Part shown: positions 3,163 to 43,530 of the stretch, piece by piece
How the letters are laid out: each line of letters opens with the position of its first letter
How positions within the stretch are numbered: position 1 is the stretch's first letter
Source: Lentilactobacillus sunkii DSM 19904
GTDB lineage: Bacteria; Bacillota; Bacilli; Lactobacillales; Lactobacillaceae
DNA length: 64,000 bases
Reading direction: 5' to 3'
NCBI RefSeq assembly: GCF_001435575.1
Contig: NZ_AZEA01000003.1
Span: 117,148-181,147 of the forward strand
The notes under the pieces: generated by a model
Databases searched by the model: none
What the model was told of the DNA's origin: nothing
The model's input: only the letters and a program-made list of their open reading frames with translations
Translations under genes and position numbers: made by a program

Positions 3163-4030
3163 GTTGAGCACTCCCCTCATATTGATTGGTTAGAAAAATG
3201 AACAGTTTCTGTAAATCAAAGTTTGACAACTGGATCGTGTCTGGCAAGACTCGGTCATCTAAATCACCATATACATAATCAGCGCGAATATTTCCCATCG
3301 TATCATGACCAATTACGTTCAGACCTTTGGTATATTGATCGACATCTTTTTGTGGTCCAACCACTGAATGGGTCTTGGCCAAGACATCTTCAACGGGCTG
3401 ATTCAAAATGACCCGCCCTTGGTCAAGAACAATCACGTCACTGATGATATTGGCGACTTCTTCTATCAAATGAGTCGAGACAATAAAAGTACGTGGGTTA
3501 TCAGCGTATGACTGAATCAATTCGGAATAGAACAGTTCACGGTGATTGGCATCCAATCCCAACACCGGCTCGTCCAACAGCACAAACTTAACCGGAAGAC
3601 ATAAAGCCAAAATCAGTTTAAAAATCGAGTTATAGCCTGTCGACAGTTTCCCGAATTTTTGATTGACGTCCAGTCCGAACTCTTTAATTAGGCGGTTCGC
3701 CAATTCATGATCGAAACCACCATAAAGGGATTCAGAATCTTTAATGATCTGCGTCAACTTCCAGCCATTCGCATAAAGATTGACTTCACTCATCAGATAC
3801 ATCAACCCTAATTTGGAATCATTGTCGCTGACATCCTCTGAGTCAATCTTAATCTGACCGCTGTCCGCAAAATTTCGATTGGTCATGATGCTCAGCAAAG
3901 TACTTTTACCAGCACCGTTTCGACCCAACAATCCATATATTTTATTATCTTCAAAAGTTAGGTTGATGTCTGATAAAACCCGCTTTGAACCGAACGCTTT
4001 TGAAATGTGACTGACTTCCAATACGGTCAT
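3140..4030 (-). CDS. ABC transporter ATP-binding protein (YtrB-like)
   Basis: Cytoplasmic ATPase of 296 residues. It shows Walker A GLLGRNGAGKST near residue 34, a degenerate signature region LSTGYNSIFKLILAL in place of LSGGQ, Walker B FVLLDEP and the switch His in VSTHLIEEV. A C-terminal extension of about 80 residues follows. The degenerate signature is common in the GntR-linked YtrB/EcsA-type ATPases. Its ATG overlaps the TGA of the GntR gene (ATGA), and its end overlaps the permease start, so the three are one translational unit. Confidence 0.9.
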   Translation of the reverse strand: MTVLEVSHISKAFGSKRVLSDINLTFEDNKIYGLLGRNGAGKSTLLSIMTNRNFADSGQIKIDSEDVSDNDSKLGLMYLMSEVNLYANGWKLTQIIKDSESLYGGFDHELANRLIKEFGLDVNQKFGKLSTGYNSIFKLILALCLPVKFVLLDEPVLGLDANHRELFYSELIQSYADNPRTFIVSTHLIEEVANIISDVIVLDQGRVILNQPVEDVLAKTHSVVGPQKDVDQYTKGLNVIGHDTMGNIRADYVYGDLDDRVLPDTIQLSNFDLQKLFIFLTNQYEGSAQHEDQQGH

Positions 4031-7143: not shown

Positions 7144-8013
7144 TTATTTAACGTTGTCCGTATTAATCACGTTTTGAGTCCCACGTTCAGTGATGATTGA
7201 AACCAAAACATTGTTAATCATTTGAATCTTCTTTTCATCCGGAATATCAATACTGATATCATGTTGCAGCTGCGAAACAGCCGCCTTGGATATCTCAACC
7301 GCCCCTTGGACAATGATCTTTCGAGCGGACAAGATCGCAGTAGCTTGTTGTCGCTGAAGCATCGCACTGGCGATTTCAGTTGCATATGCCAAGTGGGTCA
7401 ATCGTGTCTCCAAAATGGTCAATCCGGCAACTTCAAGTCGATCCTGCAATTCGGCAGTGAGTGCTTCAGACACTTCCGTAGCGTTGCCTCTCAGTGTTAA
7501 AATGTCAGTCTTCTCATCAAAACTGTCGTATGGATACTGGCTAGCAATATGCCGAATGGCAGATTCACTTTGAATCTCAACAAATTGTTCATAATCTTCC
7601 ACGTTAAAAATGGCTTTTGCCGAGTCGACAACTTTGTAGACAATTACTGCCGCAATCTCAACCGGGTTACCTTTTGAATCGTTAACCTTGATAATCTGAC
7701 TGTTAAAGTTACGAACACGGAGTGAAATTGTCTGCTTGCTTGTCAATGGCACTGTCATAAATAATCCCGGTGTACGAATAGTCCCGATATAGTTACCGAA
7801 GAAAGTAAGAACCTTGGCTTCATTTGGTTGAATAATTGTCAATGAACTGGCAAACAGCAGATCAAGAATAATAATGGCACTGCCCAGAACAATTGACATA
7901 ACTGAGCCACTTTGACTACCTGCCCAGAGCAGATAACCGCCAACGCCCAACAATAGGATAACCGCAATTAATCCAAGATATCCATTAACATGAAATACAT
8001 TTTTTTCTTTCAA
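7144..8013 (-). CDS. SPFH/Band 7 domain protein
   Basis: Membrane-associated protein of 289 residues. Two hydrophobic stretches near the N-terminus (about residues 12-32 and 38-62) are followed by an SPFH domain (about 63-240; NEAKVLTFFGNYIGTIRTPG is typical of the start) and a helical tail. The start is TTG at 8013, chosen because AGGGGGCGG lies 6 bases ahead. Family members scaffold membrane microdomains or protease complexes; the exact role here is unknown. It stands alone between metQ and the ABC block, with its own terminator. Confidence 0.88.
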   Translation of the reverse strand: MKEKNVFHVNGYLGLIAVILLLGVGGYLLWAGSQSGSVMSIVLGSAIIILDLLFASSLTIIQPNEAKVLTFFGNYIGTIRTPGLFMTVPLTSKQTISLRVRNFNSQIIKVNDSKGNPVEIAAVIVYKVVDSAKAIFNVEDYEQFVEIQSESAIRHIASQYPYDSFDEKTDILTLRGNATEVSEALTAELQDRLEVAGLTILETRLTHLAYATEIASAMLQRQQATAILSARKIIVQGAVEISKAAVSQLQHDISIDIPDEKKIQMINNVLVSIITERGTQNVINTDNVK

Positions 8014-8095: not shown

Positions 8096-8926
8096 TTACT
8101 TAACATTCTTTTCTGGCAAAACTGCACCCTTGTAGTGATGTAAAATCCATTTTTGGGTTTTGGTAGACTGGAGAACCTTAACCAATTTCTTGATGGCAGG
8201 CTTCTTTTGGTCACCTTTACGAGTTGCAATGATGTTAACGTATGGCGAATCACGCTTTTCAATTGCAATTGACTGCTTGATAGGATTCAAACCGGCACCA
8301 ACAGCATAGTTGGCATTGATGACAACCGCATCACCTTCACCGTTCTTATAAATTGTTGGCAAAAGTTTTGGTTCATAACTGTGCTTGAATTTCAGGTGGC
8401 GAGGGTTTGAAGCAATGTCACTGAAATTGGCTGAAGTAATGTTAATGCCCTTCTTAAGTGTAATCAAACCGGCATCTTTGAAGATTTGTAAGATACGGCC
8501 GTAATCGGGAACGTTGCTGCTGACAATAATTGTTGCACCCTTCTTAAGGTCTTGGAGCTTCTTGACCTTCTTTGAAAATACAGCGATTGGTTCCAGATGA
8601 ACACCACCGGCATTCACTAAAGTGCCGTGGTTTTGCTTATTCCATTGTTCCAAGAAAGGAACGTGTTGGAAGTAGTTGGCGTCAAGTTCACCATTGGCAA
8701 GAGCCTTGTTAGGCATTACGTAATCTTGGAATGTGGTGATTTTAAGGTTAACGCCTTCCTTTTTAAGTTCTGGCGCAACATGCCGTAAAATCTGAGCATG
8801 AGGAACTGCGGAAGCACCAATCTTTAAAGTGGTCATTTTTTTGCTGGAGTTGGATGATGATGAACAACCTACCAGTAAAAAGGCGGTAAATACAACTGCG
8901 AATAAACTTAATAATTTCTTCTTCAT
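8096..8926 (-). CDS. metQ: Methionine ABC transporter substrate-binding lipoprotein
   Basis: NlpA/MetQ family lipoprotein of 276 residues that captures methionine outside the membrane. A signal peptide ends in the lipobox LLVGC (lipidated Cys21), then a Ser-rich linker and the binding domain (TLKIGASAVPHAQILRHVAP). The start at 8926 is chosen because GGGAGGG lies 6 bases upstream; the frame extends a few codons further without a site. It is the last gene of the metN-metI-metQ operon, 18 bases after metI. Confidence 0.93.
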   Translation of the reverse strand: MKKKLLSLFAVVFTAFLLVGCSSSSNSSKKMTTLKIGASAVPHAQILRHVAPELKKEGVNLKITTFQDYVMPNKALANGELDANYFQHVPFLEQWNKQNHGTLVNAGGVHLEPIAVFSKKVKKLQDLKKGATIIVSSNVPDYGRILQIFKDAGLITLKKGINITSANFSDIASNPRHLKFKHSYEPKLLPTIYKNGEGDAVVINANYAVGAGLNPIKQSIAIEKRDSPYVNIIATRKGDQKKPAIKKLVKVLQSTKTQKWILHHYKGAVLPEKNVK

Positions 8927-8944
8927 GTGAAACCCTCCCAATTA

Positions 8945-9640
8945 TTATAATGTCCGTTTGTCAGTGATCTTAACGAAAACATCACCAACAAATTGGACGA
9001 TAAACACAAATAAACAAATAATGACTGTGGCAACCAAAGTAACGGTGTTATTGCTGGCTTGGAAGCCGTCTTGGTAGGCAAGATTTCCAAGTCCACCAGC
9101 TCCAATGGCACCAGCCATCGCGGTATAACCGATCAACGAGATGGTTGTAACGGTTGCTCCGGCAATTAAAGCCGGTTTGCTCTCTGGCAGCAGAACTTTG
9201 GTAATGATTCCCCAAGTGGTTGCGCCCATTGACTCAGCGGCCTCTAAAACGCCTGAATCAACCTCACGGAAATATGACTCAACCATCCGGGCATAAAATG
9301 GTGCAGCTGAGATGATCAGTGACGGTAACGCAGCCCGCGGTCCAATAATCGTCCCAGCCAACTTCATGGTAATTGGCAGTAACAGAATAATCAGGATAAT
9401 AAACGGAATTGAACGGAAGATGTTAACAAACAATCCGACAATCCAATTGAGAATTCGAAAACCAATTCCAGATTTATTACGCGTCTCGTATAAGATGAGC
9501 CCTAAAATAATTCCTAAAATAACAATTGCAACCATTGATAACAGGGTCATCCAAACCGTTTCCCAAGTTGCCGACATCATTGCACCCCAGTCGACATTAT
9601 GAAACTGAAAATAAGACTTGAATCCAGTTGTGTTAGCCAT
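8945..9640 (-). CDS. metI: Methionine ABC transporter permease
   Basis: Membrane permease of 231 residues with five to six helices and the EAA-type loop (EAAESMGATTWGIITKVLLPE) that contacts the ATPase. The ATG overlaps the end of metN by 8 bases, showing translational coupling. With MetN and MetQ it imports methionine. Confidence 0.93.
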   Translation of the reverse strand: MANTTGFKSYFQFHNVDWGAMMSATWETVWMTLLSMVAIVILGIILGLILYETRNKSGIGFRILNWIVGLFVNIFRSIPFIILIILLLPITMKLAGTIIGPRAALPSLIISAAPFYARMVESYFREVDSGVLEAAESMGATTWGIITKVLLPESKPALIAGATVTTISLIGYTAMAGAIGAGGLGNLAYQDGFQASNNTVTLVATVIICLFVFIVQFVGDVFVKITDKRTL

Positions 9641-35796: not shown

Positions 35797-35822
35797 TAAT
35801 CGTTGATATGACAATGATAAGC

Positions 35823-40134: not shown

Positions 40135-40498
40135 GGGGTCGTTATGGATTCGACGGGTATAGGTTGAGTCTGGATTGCGTTTCGTGCAGCGCCACGTTAA
40201 ACCGCCCAGTTTATTATAACTGCAAAAAATAATAACAATTCTTACGCTTTAGCTGCCTAATAAGCGCTTAACGTAGATCCTCCTAACTTCGCCCATGGGT
40301 TAGATCTGGGTCCTAAATTAAATGGGCTCACGCAGTTTGCTCCCACCTGAAGCGGACTGAAGAGACTAATCAGGTTAGCCTGCTGTGGGTGCCTTGATTT
40401 ATGGCGTTTCAGTAGGTGAAATTCAAATAATAGATCTATGAACGTAGATATCTGGGTGGCAATATGCTCGGACGCGGGTTCAACTCCCGCCGACTCCA
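40135..40498 (+). ncRNA. ssrA: Transfer-messenger RNA (tmRNA)
   Basis: Starts GGGGTCGTTATGGATTCGAC and ends with a T-arm and acceptor (GGTTCAACTCCCGCCGACTCCA). The ends pair as GGGGTCG / CGACTCC. The tag frame 40222-40257 reads AKNNNNSYALAA followed by two stops, the usual lactobacillar tag. It rescues stalled ribosomes. The CCA is not encoded beyond the discriminator A. Confidence 0.98.
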
Positions 40499-40508
40499 TT
40501 GAATATAC

Positions 40509-40560: not shown

Positions 40561-40698
40561 AAAGTAAATCAATTCGGTCGTTGAACCAAGAAAATAGTAA
40601 AATTAAATGTATGAGAATCTGTTAACTTTAGAGAATGGATATCAACCCGTCTATTCCTATACCGCAACTATATACAATACATGAAGGGAAATAAGCTT

Positions 40699-41109
40699 AT
40701 GAGGAAAATAACAAAGTACGCAATAACCGTTGCATCAGCAATCAGTTTTATGGCAATATCCCCAGCACCAAGCAATGCCGCTTCTTGGCATTATGGTACC
40801 CCAAAGATTCTTCGGGGGACATACCAACGAACTCAATATGCAGGATCAGGAAAATACCGGTTCAAGTTTCAGACAGGTGTTCGTATGACGCCAACAACCT
40901 TTACCGGATTTGGTCTTGGCGATCCCTTTGCATTAAACAGGGTCAGTTATAAACAATATGGCAGATATACTTACCTGATTCGAGGCGTGGAATTTATGTA
41001 CTCCCATAAAGTAAACCATGTAAAAATCGTGGCTACACACTATAAATTAAAATATCGTACAACATATCCATATAACGACAAGCACTACTCCAAAGTGTAT
41101 TATCGTTAG
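40699..41109 (+). CDS. Small secreted protein, WHxGTPxxLRG family
   Basis: Protein of 136 residues with a Sec signal peptide (MRKITKYAITVASA..., cleavage near SNA/AS) and a basic, Tyr-rich, probably beta-stranded domain starting SWHYGTPKILRGTYQ. A second gene in this window (61533) encodes ATWHNGTPTALRGHW at the same place, so these are paralogues; 52605 may be a more distant member. The start at 40699 is preferred over 40681. Function unknown. Confidence 0.75.
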   Translation: MRKITKYAITVASAISFMAISPAPSNAASWHYGTPKILRGTYQRTQYAGSGKYRFKFQTGVRMTPTTFTGFGLGDPFALNRVSYKQYGRYTYLIRGVEFMYSHKVNHVKIVATHYKLKYRTTYPYNDKHYSKVYYR

Positions 41110-41292: not shown

Positions 41293-41321
41293 TTTACATT
41301 GAACTGACAACATGCTATACT
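41293..41321 (+). promoter_or_regulatory. Promoter of the orphan small RNA
   Basis: TTTACA (41293-41298), 17-base spacer, TATACT (41316-41321), with TGC before the -10 (extended). Confidence 0.8.
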
Positions 41322-41325
41322 TTTT

Positions 41326-41404
41326 GTCGGTGCCAAACCACGGTGAGTAAGTAACGATCGGCGCGCAAGCGTTCAGAAGGTCGAAGCTACTTGCCATTTT
41401 TTTA
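41326..41404 (+). ncRNA. Candidate small structured RNA, about 80 nt
   Basis: A near-consensus promoter is followed by about 80 bases with no ORF. Predicted stems are GTAAGTA (41347-41353) with TACTTGC (41388-41394), inside it CGATC with GGTCG, and at the tip GCGC-GCAA-GCGT with a GNRA tetraloop. The 3' stem runs straight into CATTTTTTT, so the fold ends as an intrinsic terminator. The 5' part GTCGGTGCCAAACCACG may be a seed or further stem. It does not match 4.5S, 6S or tmRNA as I know them, and the downstream gene starts 105 bases later with its own -10. Confidence 0.65.
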
Positions 41405-41508: not shown

Positions 41509-41994
41509 ATGCAAGATCAAACACCATCACGACAGCAACGAAAACAGACTAAAAAAGCACAGAAGAAATCCAAGCACACCAAATTAATTGTGTTGTTAAC
41601 TGTCTTGGCCATTATCCTGGGTGGCTTTCTGTATGTCGGCCACCAGGTTCATGAATTAACGGACGCGCAACGCCAGACCAACACGATTTTGGATAAACCA
41701 ATTAAAAATACAGTGGTTAAAATTGTTCAGCCAAAATTGCCTGAGGAAGTTCGGCCACAAGTCATTCGAATTATTCAAGAAGAACCGTTATACCGTATTC
41801 AGCAGGCAGCTGACAATCCAGAACTGTTTCAACAAATTGCCGACAAATACCAAGTTCCTGAAAATTACGTCGCACCGGCCAAACAATACTGGTTCAGCCA
41901 GCAAAATGATGCTTTGAGGTCGGACATTTATCATGCTAAGCTGATGCAGATTATTTCGGAACTTCAAGCATTGAATAATTCCAGTCAGTCATGA
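41509..41994 (+). CDS. Hypothetical membrane-anchored protein
   Basis: Protein of 161 residues: basic cytoplasmic tail rich in Lys, Gln and Arg (1-25), one membrane helix (about 26-46) and an extracytoplasmic helical domain. GAGGGGGA precedes the ATG; an extended -10 (TGTTATACT) lies near 41467-41475. It ends next to a secreted-protein gene, giving a likely pair. Not recognised. Confidence 0.72.
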   Translation: MQDQTPSRQQRKQTKKAQKKSKHTKLIVLLTVLAIILGGFLYVGHQVHELTDAQRQTNTILDKPIKNTVVKIVQPKLPEEVRPQVIRIIQEEPLYRIQQAADNPELFQQIADKYQVPENYVAPAKQYWFSQQNDALRSDIYHAKLMQIISELQALNNSSQS

Positions 41995-42011
41995 AATCGG
42001 GGGATATTTAC

Positions 42012-42842
42012 ATGAAATTTAAATCACTTTTTTCAATGATCGTGGCTGGGACAGCTTTGGGAATTGGAATGACAATGACCATGCCCTCCGTGTCCGCTAA
42101 CGGGTATCAAAGAATCAAAACAAGTTGGGAATCTTCACCCACTTGGTTTCAAGTGAAGTCCCAATATAAACATAAAAAAGTGTACATGTGGAATAGTAAC
42201 CACACTAAAAAAATTCTACAATTAAACAATTATCCAAATTCCAACCGGAATCGTAATCATACTTATACCTATAAACACAATGGCAAGTTGTCAGTCTACT
42301 ATGGAATCAATGGCTGGACGCCAAAGAATCATTACACCCGAAAAGGAATTGTTTGGGGCGGGTATCTCCGACCGGGCTACAATACGAACTACAAGGTTTG
42401 GAACAATCTACAACTAGGCAGATTCTCAAACAACCAGGAATATGCCAAGTACATTCAAGAATCACCTTCCCAGCGATTTTCTAAAAAGGTATTAAAGCTG
42501 TTTCCGAACACGCCATTATCTTGGAGACTCAGTAGCGAATGGAGCGCATTCCCTATCCAAACAGATCCAACTACTGGGATTAAATCGTTGCCATCATTTA
42601 CCGATGTTATTGTTTTGCAATCAGTCAACAAATACTTTGACCGTGCCTTTTACAAAAATAACATTTCCGACAGCCAACGATTAAATCTGGTTAAAAAAGC
42701 ACTGGATAAAGCAGGCTACGATCAGGCAAAGCGCAACACTTTAAGCGACTACCAAATTGGCATTTTCTACTACGACAAACATCATCAAGAAGCCGCCGAC
42801 GAATATCCGGGAATTATACTTGCAAAGCCCATTCAAAAATAG
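42012..42842 (+). CDS. Secreted protein with SH3-like region
   Basis: Protein of 276 residues with a signal peptide (cleavage near SVSA/NG). The segment KVYMWNSNHTKKILQLNNY through GIVWGGYLRPGYN looks like the Trp/Gly-rich wall-binding SH3-like modules seen in lactobacillar surface proteins. The C-terminal 120 residues are not recognised. The start at 42012 is behind GGGGGA. Cotranscribed with the preceding gene (17-base gap). Confidence 0.72.
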   Translation: MKFKSLFSMIVAGTALGIGMTMTMPSVSANGYQRIKTSWESSPTWFQVKSQYKHKKVYMWNSNHTKKILQLNNYPNSNRNRNHTYTYKHNGKLSVYYGINGWTPKNHYTRKGIVWGGYLRPGYNTNYKVWNNLQLGRFSNNQEYAKYIQESPSQRFSKKVLKLFPNTPLSWRLSSEWSAFPIQTDPTTGIKSLPSFTDVIVLQSVNKYFDRAFYKNNISDSQRLNLVKKALDKAGYDQAKRNTLSDYQIGIFYYDKHHQEAADEYPGIILAKPIQK

Positions 42843-43035: not shown

Positions 43036-43530
43036 ATGAAAAAAGCAATCGTGCTTGTCATGACATTCATCACAGCAATATCTCTTGCAGGCTGCACACT
43101 GGGACAGAGCAAGAAGTCCTCAAACGCTCAAAGCTTCAGCAACAACTCACTGAAAGCCAAAAACTTCCAACTAAAAATTACCAAAACGACGGTCATCCCA
43201 GCCGGTGAAACCGGAAACGAATTTGGTAAAAAGCCAATTTTTGCCATTTGGTATACGATCAAAAATACCAGCAATAAAAAAGTTACGCCGGTTTCCGCAG
43301 CCTCGGTACTGCACGCATACCAACCAGCTAAGTCTAAGAAGCGATTGATTGCTGCCCCACTTCCAGATGAGAAATTAGCATCCAGTTATAAAGTCAACAT
43401 CAAGAAGAATCATTCAGCCAAAGGTTCTATGGCTTGGAATCTATACGACACAAAATCACCAATCAAAATTTATGGCGTCAAATATGGTACAAACCAAACG
43501 ATTGGCATTCGAACTTACAGCATCAAGTAG
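43036..43530 (+). CDS. DUF5067-like lipoprotein
   Basis: Protein of 164 residues with signal peptide and lipobox SLAGC (Cys20). The domain (IFAIWYTIKNTSNKKVTP, then an Ig-like run ending GIRTYSIK) follows the DUF5067/DUF4352 pattern of extracellular sandwich domains. Function unknown. Single-gene unit. Confidence 0.78.
   Translation: MKKAIVLVMTFITAISLAGCTLGQSKKSSNAQSFSNNSLKAKNFQLKITKTTVIPAGETGNEFGKKPIFAIWYTIKNTSNKKVTPVSAASVLHAYQPAKSKKRLIAAPLPDEKLASSYKVNIKKNHSAKGSMAWNLYDTKSPIKIYGVKYGTNQTIGIRTYSIK

Follow-up and report, generated by a model that had tools for sequence, protein, structure and literature searches.

Comparative evidence for an order-wide family of small structured RNAs, tRNA-linked or free-standing, in Lactobacillales

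Comparison with related genomes indicates that the 64,000-nt stretch of Lentilactobacillus sunkii DSM 19904 DNA that we analysed (hereafter the window) carries a real small RNA gene, and that this locus belongs to a family of small structured RNAs that spans the order and has no counterpart in Rfam 15 by our searches. It is this comparison with relatives, rather than any statistic on the single sequence, that makes the RNA convincing. With moderate confidence, we explain the data as a whole by a structured RNA family found across the order, whose members are either tRNA-linked or free-standing and would act in trans through an invariant 5′ hairpin, HP1. The comparison also lends support to an earlier interpretation made from the letters of the DNA (the sequence-only reading), which had proposed a stand-alone non-coding small RNA gene equipped with a promoter and a terminator of its own.

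In the window, the predicted promoter (41293–41321, + strand) comprises a −35 element, TTTACA (41293–41298), a 17-nt spacer and a −10 element, TATACT (41316–41321), that is extended by a TG before the box (TGCTATACT), exactly as first described. The probable transcript, delimited by homologue comparison, is ~75–78 nt long and occupies 41326–41403 (+), with a 5′ end placed from the −10 box to within ~3 nt (~41326/41329); hence the span originally given to the RNA, 41293–41404, does contain it but begins with promoter sequence. Also present as described is the fold, a small hairpin at the 5′ end and then a long arm with a GCAA loop, followed by the RNA's own T-run. On the + strand, HP1 (GGU-GCCAA-ACC; 41329–41339) is followed by the 5′ strand of P1 (41342–41352), a terminator stem of variable sequence, the 5′ strand of the covarying P2 (41355–41359), P3 (GGCGC-GCAA-GCGTT; 41360–41373), a 3′ bulge, CAGAA (41374–41378), the 3′ strands of P2 (41379–41383) and P1 (41386–41395) and the T-run of the intrinsic terminator (41397–41403, seen in the window sequence), P1 being assigned from the fold and alignment A4, and P2 from alignment A8. 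Two relatives (genomes G060 and G037) have, by eye, a separate terminator-like hairpin after the RNA instead. The statement that the RNA contains no ORF holds in the sense that none has support, but mechanical ORFs do overlap the region on both strands. The promoter scan found six promoter-like sites against 5.7 expected in shuffles, and the RNA's own terminator was absent from the list that the scan gave. The fold z-score was −1.83 for the RNA (equally good in 8 of 200 shuffles) and −1.58 for 41293–41404 (16 of 200). Promoter and single-sequence fold statistics are near chance and weak alone, and we did not use them as proof.

A DNA search of 100 relatives gave a match in 20 genomes, 18 of which (the window's own included) represent the RNA. 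Matches L019 and L020, of 22 and 19 bases and with the rest of the RNA absent by eye from the sequence read, were judged to be chance. Two covariance models, both of which favour copies with intact HP1, were then used, R1 built from 17 loci of this search and R2 trained on 38 diverse copies aligned with MAFFT (A8). With R1, the RNA turned up in 16 of 24 genomes from the genus, in 125 of 397 from the family Lactobacillaceae and in 41 of 395 from the order, and with R2 in 125 of 390 from the order, spread over 30 of 80 genera, so that the 'orphan' of the sequence-only reading proves to be one member of a widespread family. Most genomes with a match have a single copy, and 272 of the 397 Lactobacillaceae genomes have none with R1, which counts against the overall explanation; the R1 filters lose weak matches, and R2 adds a few. 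A class-wide search with R2 yielded matches at E up to 0.1 in 17 of 398 genomes, the five strong ones all lying within the order, and outside the order no match in these 398 genomes was better than E 0.013. Twelve of the matches (E 0.013–0.09, one within the order) were discounted as no more than chance gives. The window locus scored 96.2 bits with R1 and 70.8 bits with R2 over its full length, as it must by construction because the window copy is in both training sets, and untrained loci match too.

The earlier remark that the RNA fits none of the common, recognisable RNAs was borne out by Rfam 15. At cut-off, no family was found for the RNA in the window, where only the tmRNA (40135–40501) and two tRNAs match, and only tRNA exceeded cut-off in 20 homologous loci and in six homologous loci searched at E up to 1. 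With E up to 10, the segment 41100–41520 returned three chance-like families only. Loose-threshold matches (DLEU2_3, SNORD36, StyR-143, a microRNA and others) were far below gathering scores and were rejected. The family is perhaps missing from Rfam 15 because it is hidden behind a tRNA gene.

Covariation across species, which had been named as a check, was assessed by RNAalifold in three alignments: A4, with 17 rows (L005, whose RNA is identical to that of L004, L019 and L020 omitted); A8, with 38 rows chosen from 54 matches (near-duplicates and a weak L118 match at 7635 omitted); and A10, with 29 chosen, mostly tRNA-linked copies, including L218 (no tRNA) and the phage copy L381. Compensatory changes occurred in 7 of 21 pairs in A4, 8 of 14 in A8 and 20 of 27 in A10. 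In A8, 97.0% of cells pair, a share that none of 500 shuffles attained (81.2% there); nor did any of the 500 attain the covariation score of 0.505, which was 0.204 in shuffles and at most 0.148 when the structure was slid. Two weaker measures, eight pairs changed on both sides and 20 further pair types, were reached by 14 and 182 of 500 shuffles respectively. The alignments thus indicate that the structure is under selection.

The architecture common to the family is the HP1 hairpin followed by a P1–P2–P3 arm that often doubles as terminator. P1 is variable in sequence and often the terminator stem, P2 covaries, and P3 takes the form GGYGY-loop-RCRUU with a 3′ bulge of consensus NNGAA. The 11 bases of HP1 (GGUGCCAAACC) do not change in any of the 17 rows of A4 or the 38 of A8, while the next, outer pair covaries; the 5′ GTCGGTGCC segment previously put forward for target prediction thus came close, the invariant segment being GGTGCCAAACC (41329–41339). 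Nearly as invariant is a GG/UU-NN-GAA motif, the GG and UU of P3 being kept in all 38 A8 rows and nearly all of A10, and even in L302 and L305, where P3 has switched to other pairs. The GNRA cap noted at the outset is common (10 of 17 rows in A4 and 29 of 36 four-base P3 loops in A8) but not obligatory. In L057 (5001–5078), P3 is extended to a longer stem (GGTGCAAG...CTTGCATT), which offers natural support for the helix. Two diverged trailers behind tRNA-Lys(CTT) in family f2, L324 (462–533) and L325 (495–568), have both HP1 and the GG motif changed and may be decaying or differently tuned members.

The genomic setting divides the family. A scan of genomes with a pattern demanding HP1 plus core matched at least 119 stretches, a sample and not a census, and one that is silent on HP1 invariance because the pattern demands intact HP1; those among the matches listed all come from Lactobacillaceae, Enterococcus, Vagococcus, Carnobacterium, Listeria or Streptococcaceae MAGs. 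Outside Lactobacillaceae, GGTGCC starts 1–3 nt after tRNA-Lys(CTT) in 17 of 19 loci among the matches listed, the exceptions without tRNA-Lys in front being those of Enterococcus alcedinis and Candidatus Enterococcus avicola (L188 and L218), which may have become detached a second time or been left behind when an element integrated. Sixty further stretches held 51 tRNA genes, 49 of them tRNA-Lys(CTT). Among the matches listed from Lactobacillaceae, no tRNA of any kind was found within 400 nt upstream in any of 100 loci, the best −10-like hexamer ends 6–8 nt before GGTGCC in 92, a hexamer scoring ≥5 occurs in 92 (compared with 30 of 300 control windows) and a TG-extended −10 in 90 (26 of 300 control windows). 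In the window, the nearest upstream tRNA ends at 35797, with only the tmRNA in between, and the tRNA-Lys(CTT) of this genome is on another contig (C67, the window being on C23), followed by a different terminator-like hairpin (by eye). By eye, the tRNA-Lys(CTT) setting is alike in eight relatives within the genus, only four of which have the RNA. In genome G662, which has another copy behind tRNA-Lys, a weak model match (L323, 511–576) lies close behind tRNA-Gln(ctg) and may be a terminator matched by chance or a distant relative.

Neighbouring genes are not constant. In a survey of 39 loci plus the window, from which L087 was left out (no RNA matched by the search expression), no gene kept the same place and strand across genera, which speaks against the suggestion that the flanking small surface-protein genes are targets, and no conserved same-strand downstream gene, as expected of a riboswitch or leader, was found. 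Loci from more than one genus do share protein clusters 6, 10 and 11 within 5 kb, now on one side and now on the other, and eight loci have cluster 0 at varying distances. Around the RNA in the window are small proteins with leader-like N-termini (40681–41109, 41991–42842 and 43036–43530, +), the first two without a Pfam match and the third a DUF5067 protein; the clusters of these three are present in two or three of 40 loci, window included, that of the 40681 protein in the window and one other locus. Also nearby is a tmRNA gene with tag AKNNNNSYALAA (40135–40501, +), ~0.8 kb upstream. Because no neighbour is constant, the RNA most likely acts away from its own locus, and we consider it highly probable that it acts in trans and not as a leader of neighbouring genes.

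These arrangements suggest how the same RNA could be made in two ways. In the Lactobacillaceae sampled, it would be expressed as a free-standing gene, nearly always from behind an extended −10 box. In most other Lactobacillales sampled, it lies directly behind tRNA-Lys(CTT), with no room for a promoter or terminator between them, so that tRNA and RNA would form one transcript from which RNase Z, the tRNA 3′-end nuclease, would free the RNA. Either route, such tRNA processing or its own promoter, would give the RNA much the same 5′ end. HP1, at that end, is in our assessment somewhat more probably than otherwise the contact site, and its likeliest use, for which we put the chances at about even, would be the pairing of its 11 bases with another RNA.

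The leading candidate for such a partner, put forward tentatively, is 23S rRNA. The 11 bases of HP1 are the exact antisense of GGUUUGGCACC, found at 2510 of 2921 in the 23S rRNA of G006 (same genus), 2504 of 2915 in that of E. mundtii (G447) and 2507 of 2918 in that of G110, a site that we take to be the 3′ strand of helix 89, at the edge of the peptidyl transferase ring. These other genomes were used because a search of the draft assembly of L. sunkii with RF02541 found no 23S; RF02541 was present in three of four, G556 being without it. The computed duplex energy of the HP1 segment with 23S, with the folding of 23S itself not counted in, was −22.5 kcal/mol, compared with −3.5 for its own fold. 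A complement of this length in 23S was found for 108 of 200000 composition-shuffled 11-mers and for 44 of 20000 random loops in GGT-N5-ACC (0.05–0.2% over both tests), tests that were not blind because 23S had been chosen beforehand for its known sequence. The match is notable only because it is restricted to the invariant block, since shuffles of the whole RNA also contain a 23S complement of at least 11 nt somewhere (67 of 3000). An invariant stem and loop next to a variable pair agrees with a segment opening to pair over its full length, in this case perhaps with the helix 89/peptidyl-transferase strand of immature or unfolded 50S. The two tRNA-Lys-linked copies with changed HP1 (L324 and L325) count against the overall explanation. 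The 23S reading leaves the GG/UU-NN-GAA motif unexplained; this motif suggests a tertiary fold or a protein site. A further resemblance to 23S, an 8-nt sense match of GUUCAGAA in P3 of the window RNA, is absent in E. mundtii and was dropped.

Pairing with mRNAs and binding of protein carry a weight similar to that of 23S pairing. The RNA could be an ordinary trans-acting antisense regulator whose HP1 opens to pair with several mRNAs, the 23S match being coincidental, a reading to which we give a fair hearing but well below even chances. A free-standing gene with promoter and terminator would suit it, as would the appearance of a pairing segment given by 11 nt that stay unchanged in both stem and loop next to a covarying pair. 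If the seed were shorter, mRNA sites would be numerous; GTTTGGCACC by itself occurs 23 times in G006, including five times in 23S. However, the draft genome of L. sunkii has, besides the RNA, three GGTTTGGCACC sites, all antisense to long ORFs, and the mRNAs of those ORFs therefore carry the RNA's own sequence and not its complement. We rate just as highly, and thus likewise as a minority possibility, a compact protein- or ribosome-binding RNA in which HP1 docks on GG/UU-NN-GAA, so that invariance would reflect a tertiary fold rather than pairing in trans. Two separate invariant motifs, the retention of GG and UU even where the rest of P3 differs (L302 and L305) and the capacity of the loop GCC to pair with GGY inside the molecule all point this way. 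On the other hand, such a loop–GG pairing has both sides invariant in the alignments and so gives no covariation signal, and the diverged L325 has AA for GG yet keeps GCCAA.

Mobile elements have made use of the same tRNA gene. Several genomes from Listeria and the enterococcal family carry extra RNA copies behind only the 3′ half of tRNA-Lys (anticodon loop onward), some of them within a few kilobases of an intact tRNA-Lys locus. They look like attachment-site duplicates, as would be the signature of integration at tRNA-Lys, and tRNA-Lys(ctt) is a reported prophage integration site in Listeria (PMC8386393, PMC6929445). L289 (genome G593, family f3) has three RNA copies in a row (641–717, 3946–4022 and 8891–8967), the second and third behind tRNA-Lys 3′ halves, which are probably stacked integrations at one site. 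Enterococcus phage 4995_2 has the tRNA half plus the RNA, with no complete tRNA in the stretch read, and the annotated attP of Listeria phage A500 (L380, 601–700) has the tRNA half and then a plain terminator-like hairpin, the RNA being absent. A500 lysogeny should therefore separate the host tRNA-Lys from the RNA, and lysogens may live without it, which counts against the overall explanation. Two contigs labelled phage (L382 and L383) were discounted as phage evidence, since a complete tRNA-Lys plus the RNA makes them look like bacterial DNA. A phage or plasmid origin of the window copy was looked for by blastn, which gave no match at E 1e-5. With classes read from the tRNA search, 47 of 49 copies that follow a full tRNA-Lys have an intact HP1, compared with 11 of 16 copies without one outside Lactobacillaceae (the 16 including the doubtful match L323), as expected if only the transcribed copy were under selection.

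Direct adjacency to tRNA-Lys(CTT) in most non-Lactobacillaceae, duplicates behind the tRNA 3′ half and the one phage record with half a tRNA plus the RNA might be taken to mean that the RNA is a mere terminator or maturation element of tRNA-Lys(CTT), retained through the integration of elements there. We regard this as improbable, and for Lactobacillaceae a terminator-only reading is already contradicted: among the matches listed, none of the 100 loci of this family showed a tRNA up to 400 nt upstream and 90 have an extended −10. Moreover, tRNA-Lys(CTT) elsewhere has other terminators behind it, and the covariation and invariant motifs exceed what a terminator stem would need. That the locus is a chance fold or a pseudogene without function, which single-sequence fold and promoter statistics near chance would allow, is very unlikely, being already contradicted by covariation as well as by conservation across the order.

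If the preferred reading of a trans-acting family and the 23S match are combined in full, the RNA would have been born as a tail of tRNA-Lys, been freed in lactobacilli and come to pair through its 11 invariant bases with the helix 89/peptidyl-transferase strand, linking tRNA supply and 50S assembly, hibernation or turnover; this complete scenario is speculative, and we think it rather unlikely as it stands. If true, 23S pairing would mean an RNA aimed at the peptidyl transferase centre. The family itself, absent from Rfam 15 by the searches made, has members in Listeria, enterococci, vagococci and carnobacteria as well as in many lactobacilli. It offers a natural comparison, since the same RNA follows a tRNA gene in some bacterial families and has a promoter of its own in another. 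Moreover, its presence in one phage attachment site and not in another makes its importance testable by lysogeny.

We recognised no description of this RNA in open-access full text, and it is possible that the RNA figures as a number in some sRNA table. Several known systems resemble it in part. The tmRNA (RF00023) upstream in the window is a different RNA, and only the tmRNA itself matches RF00023 there. The 23S-methyl RNA motif (RF01065), whose range is Lactobacillales, is a small RNA with 23S in its name, and is absent from the Rfam matches for the window and 26 homologous loci. One study reports that E. faecalis and E. faecium express it (PMC7724050). In several Streptococcaceae, 6S RNA neighbours tRNA-Lys and is thought to form one operon with it, but in that account 6S precedes tRNA-Lys, whereas the RNA here follows the tRNA (PMC8414754); no 6S exceeded the Rfam 15 cut-off in the window. 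Prophage integration in Listeria involves the same tRNA gene as here, and the RNA behind that tRNA goes unmentioned in the excerpts of the two reports (PMC8386393, PMC6929445). There is also a likeness to tRNA 3′ trailers, a position that the RNA takes in 17 of 19 relatives outside Lactobacillaceae among the matches listed. The window copy is not such a trailer, because it has its own promoter and no tRNA directly upstream. In E. coli, 3′ETS-leuZ, the 3′ external transcribed spacer of a tRNA gene, represents a kind of small RNA that is released by tRNA 3′-end processing and sponges other sRNAs; the RNA described here similarly occupies a tRNA 3′ trailer in the majority of relatives sampled beyond Lactobacillaceae, and could act in trans. 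It differs from 3′ETS-leuZ in being a structured 75-nt RNA with order-wide covariation and its own terminator and in having, in Lactobacillaceae, a free-standing form with its own promoter.
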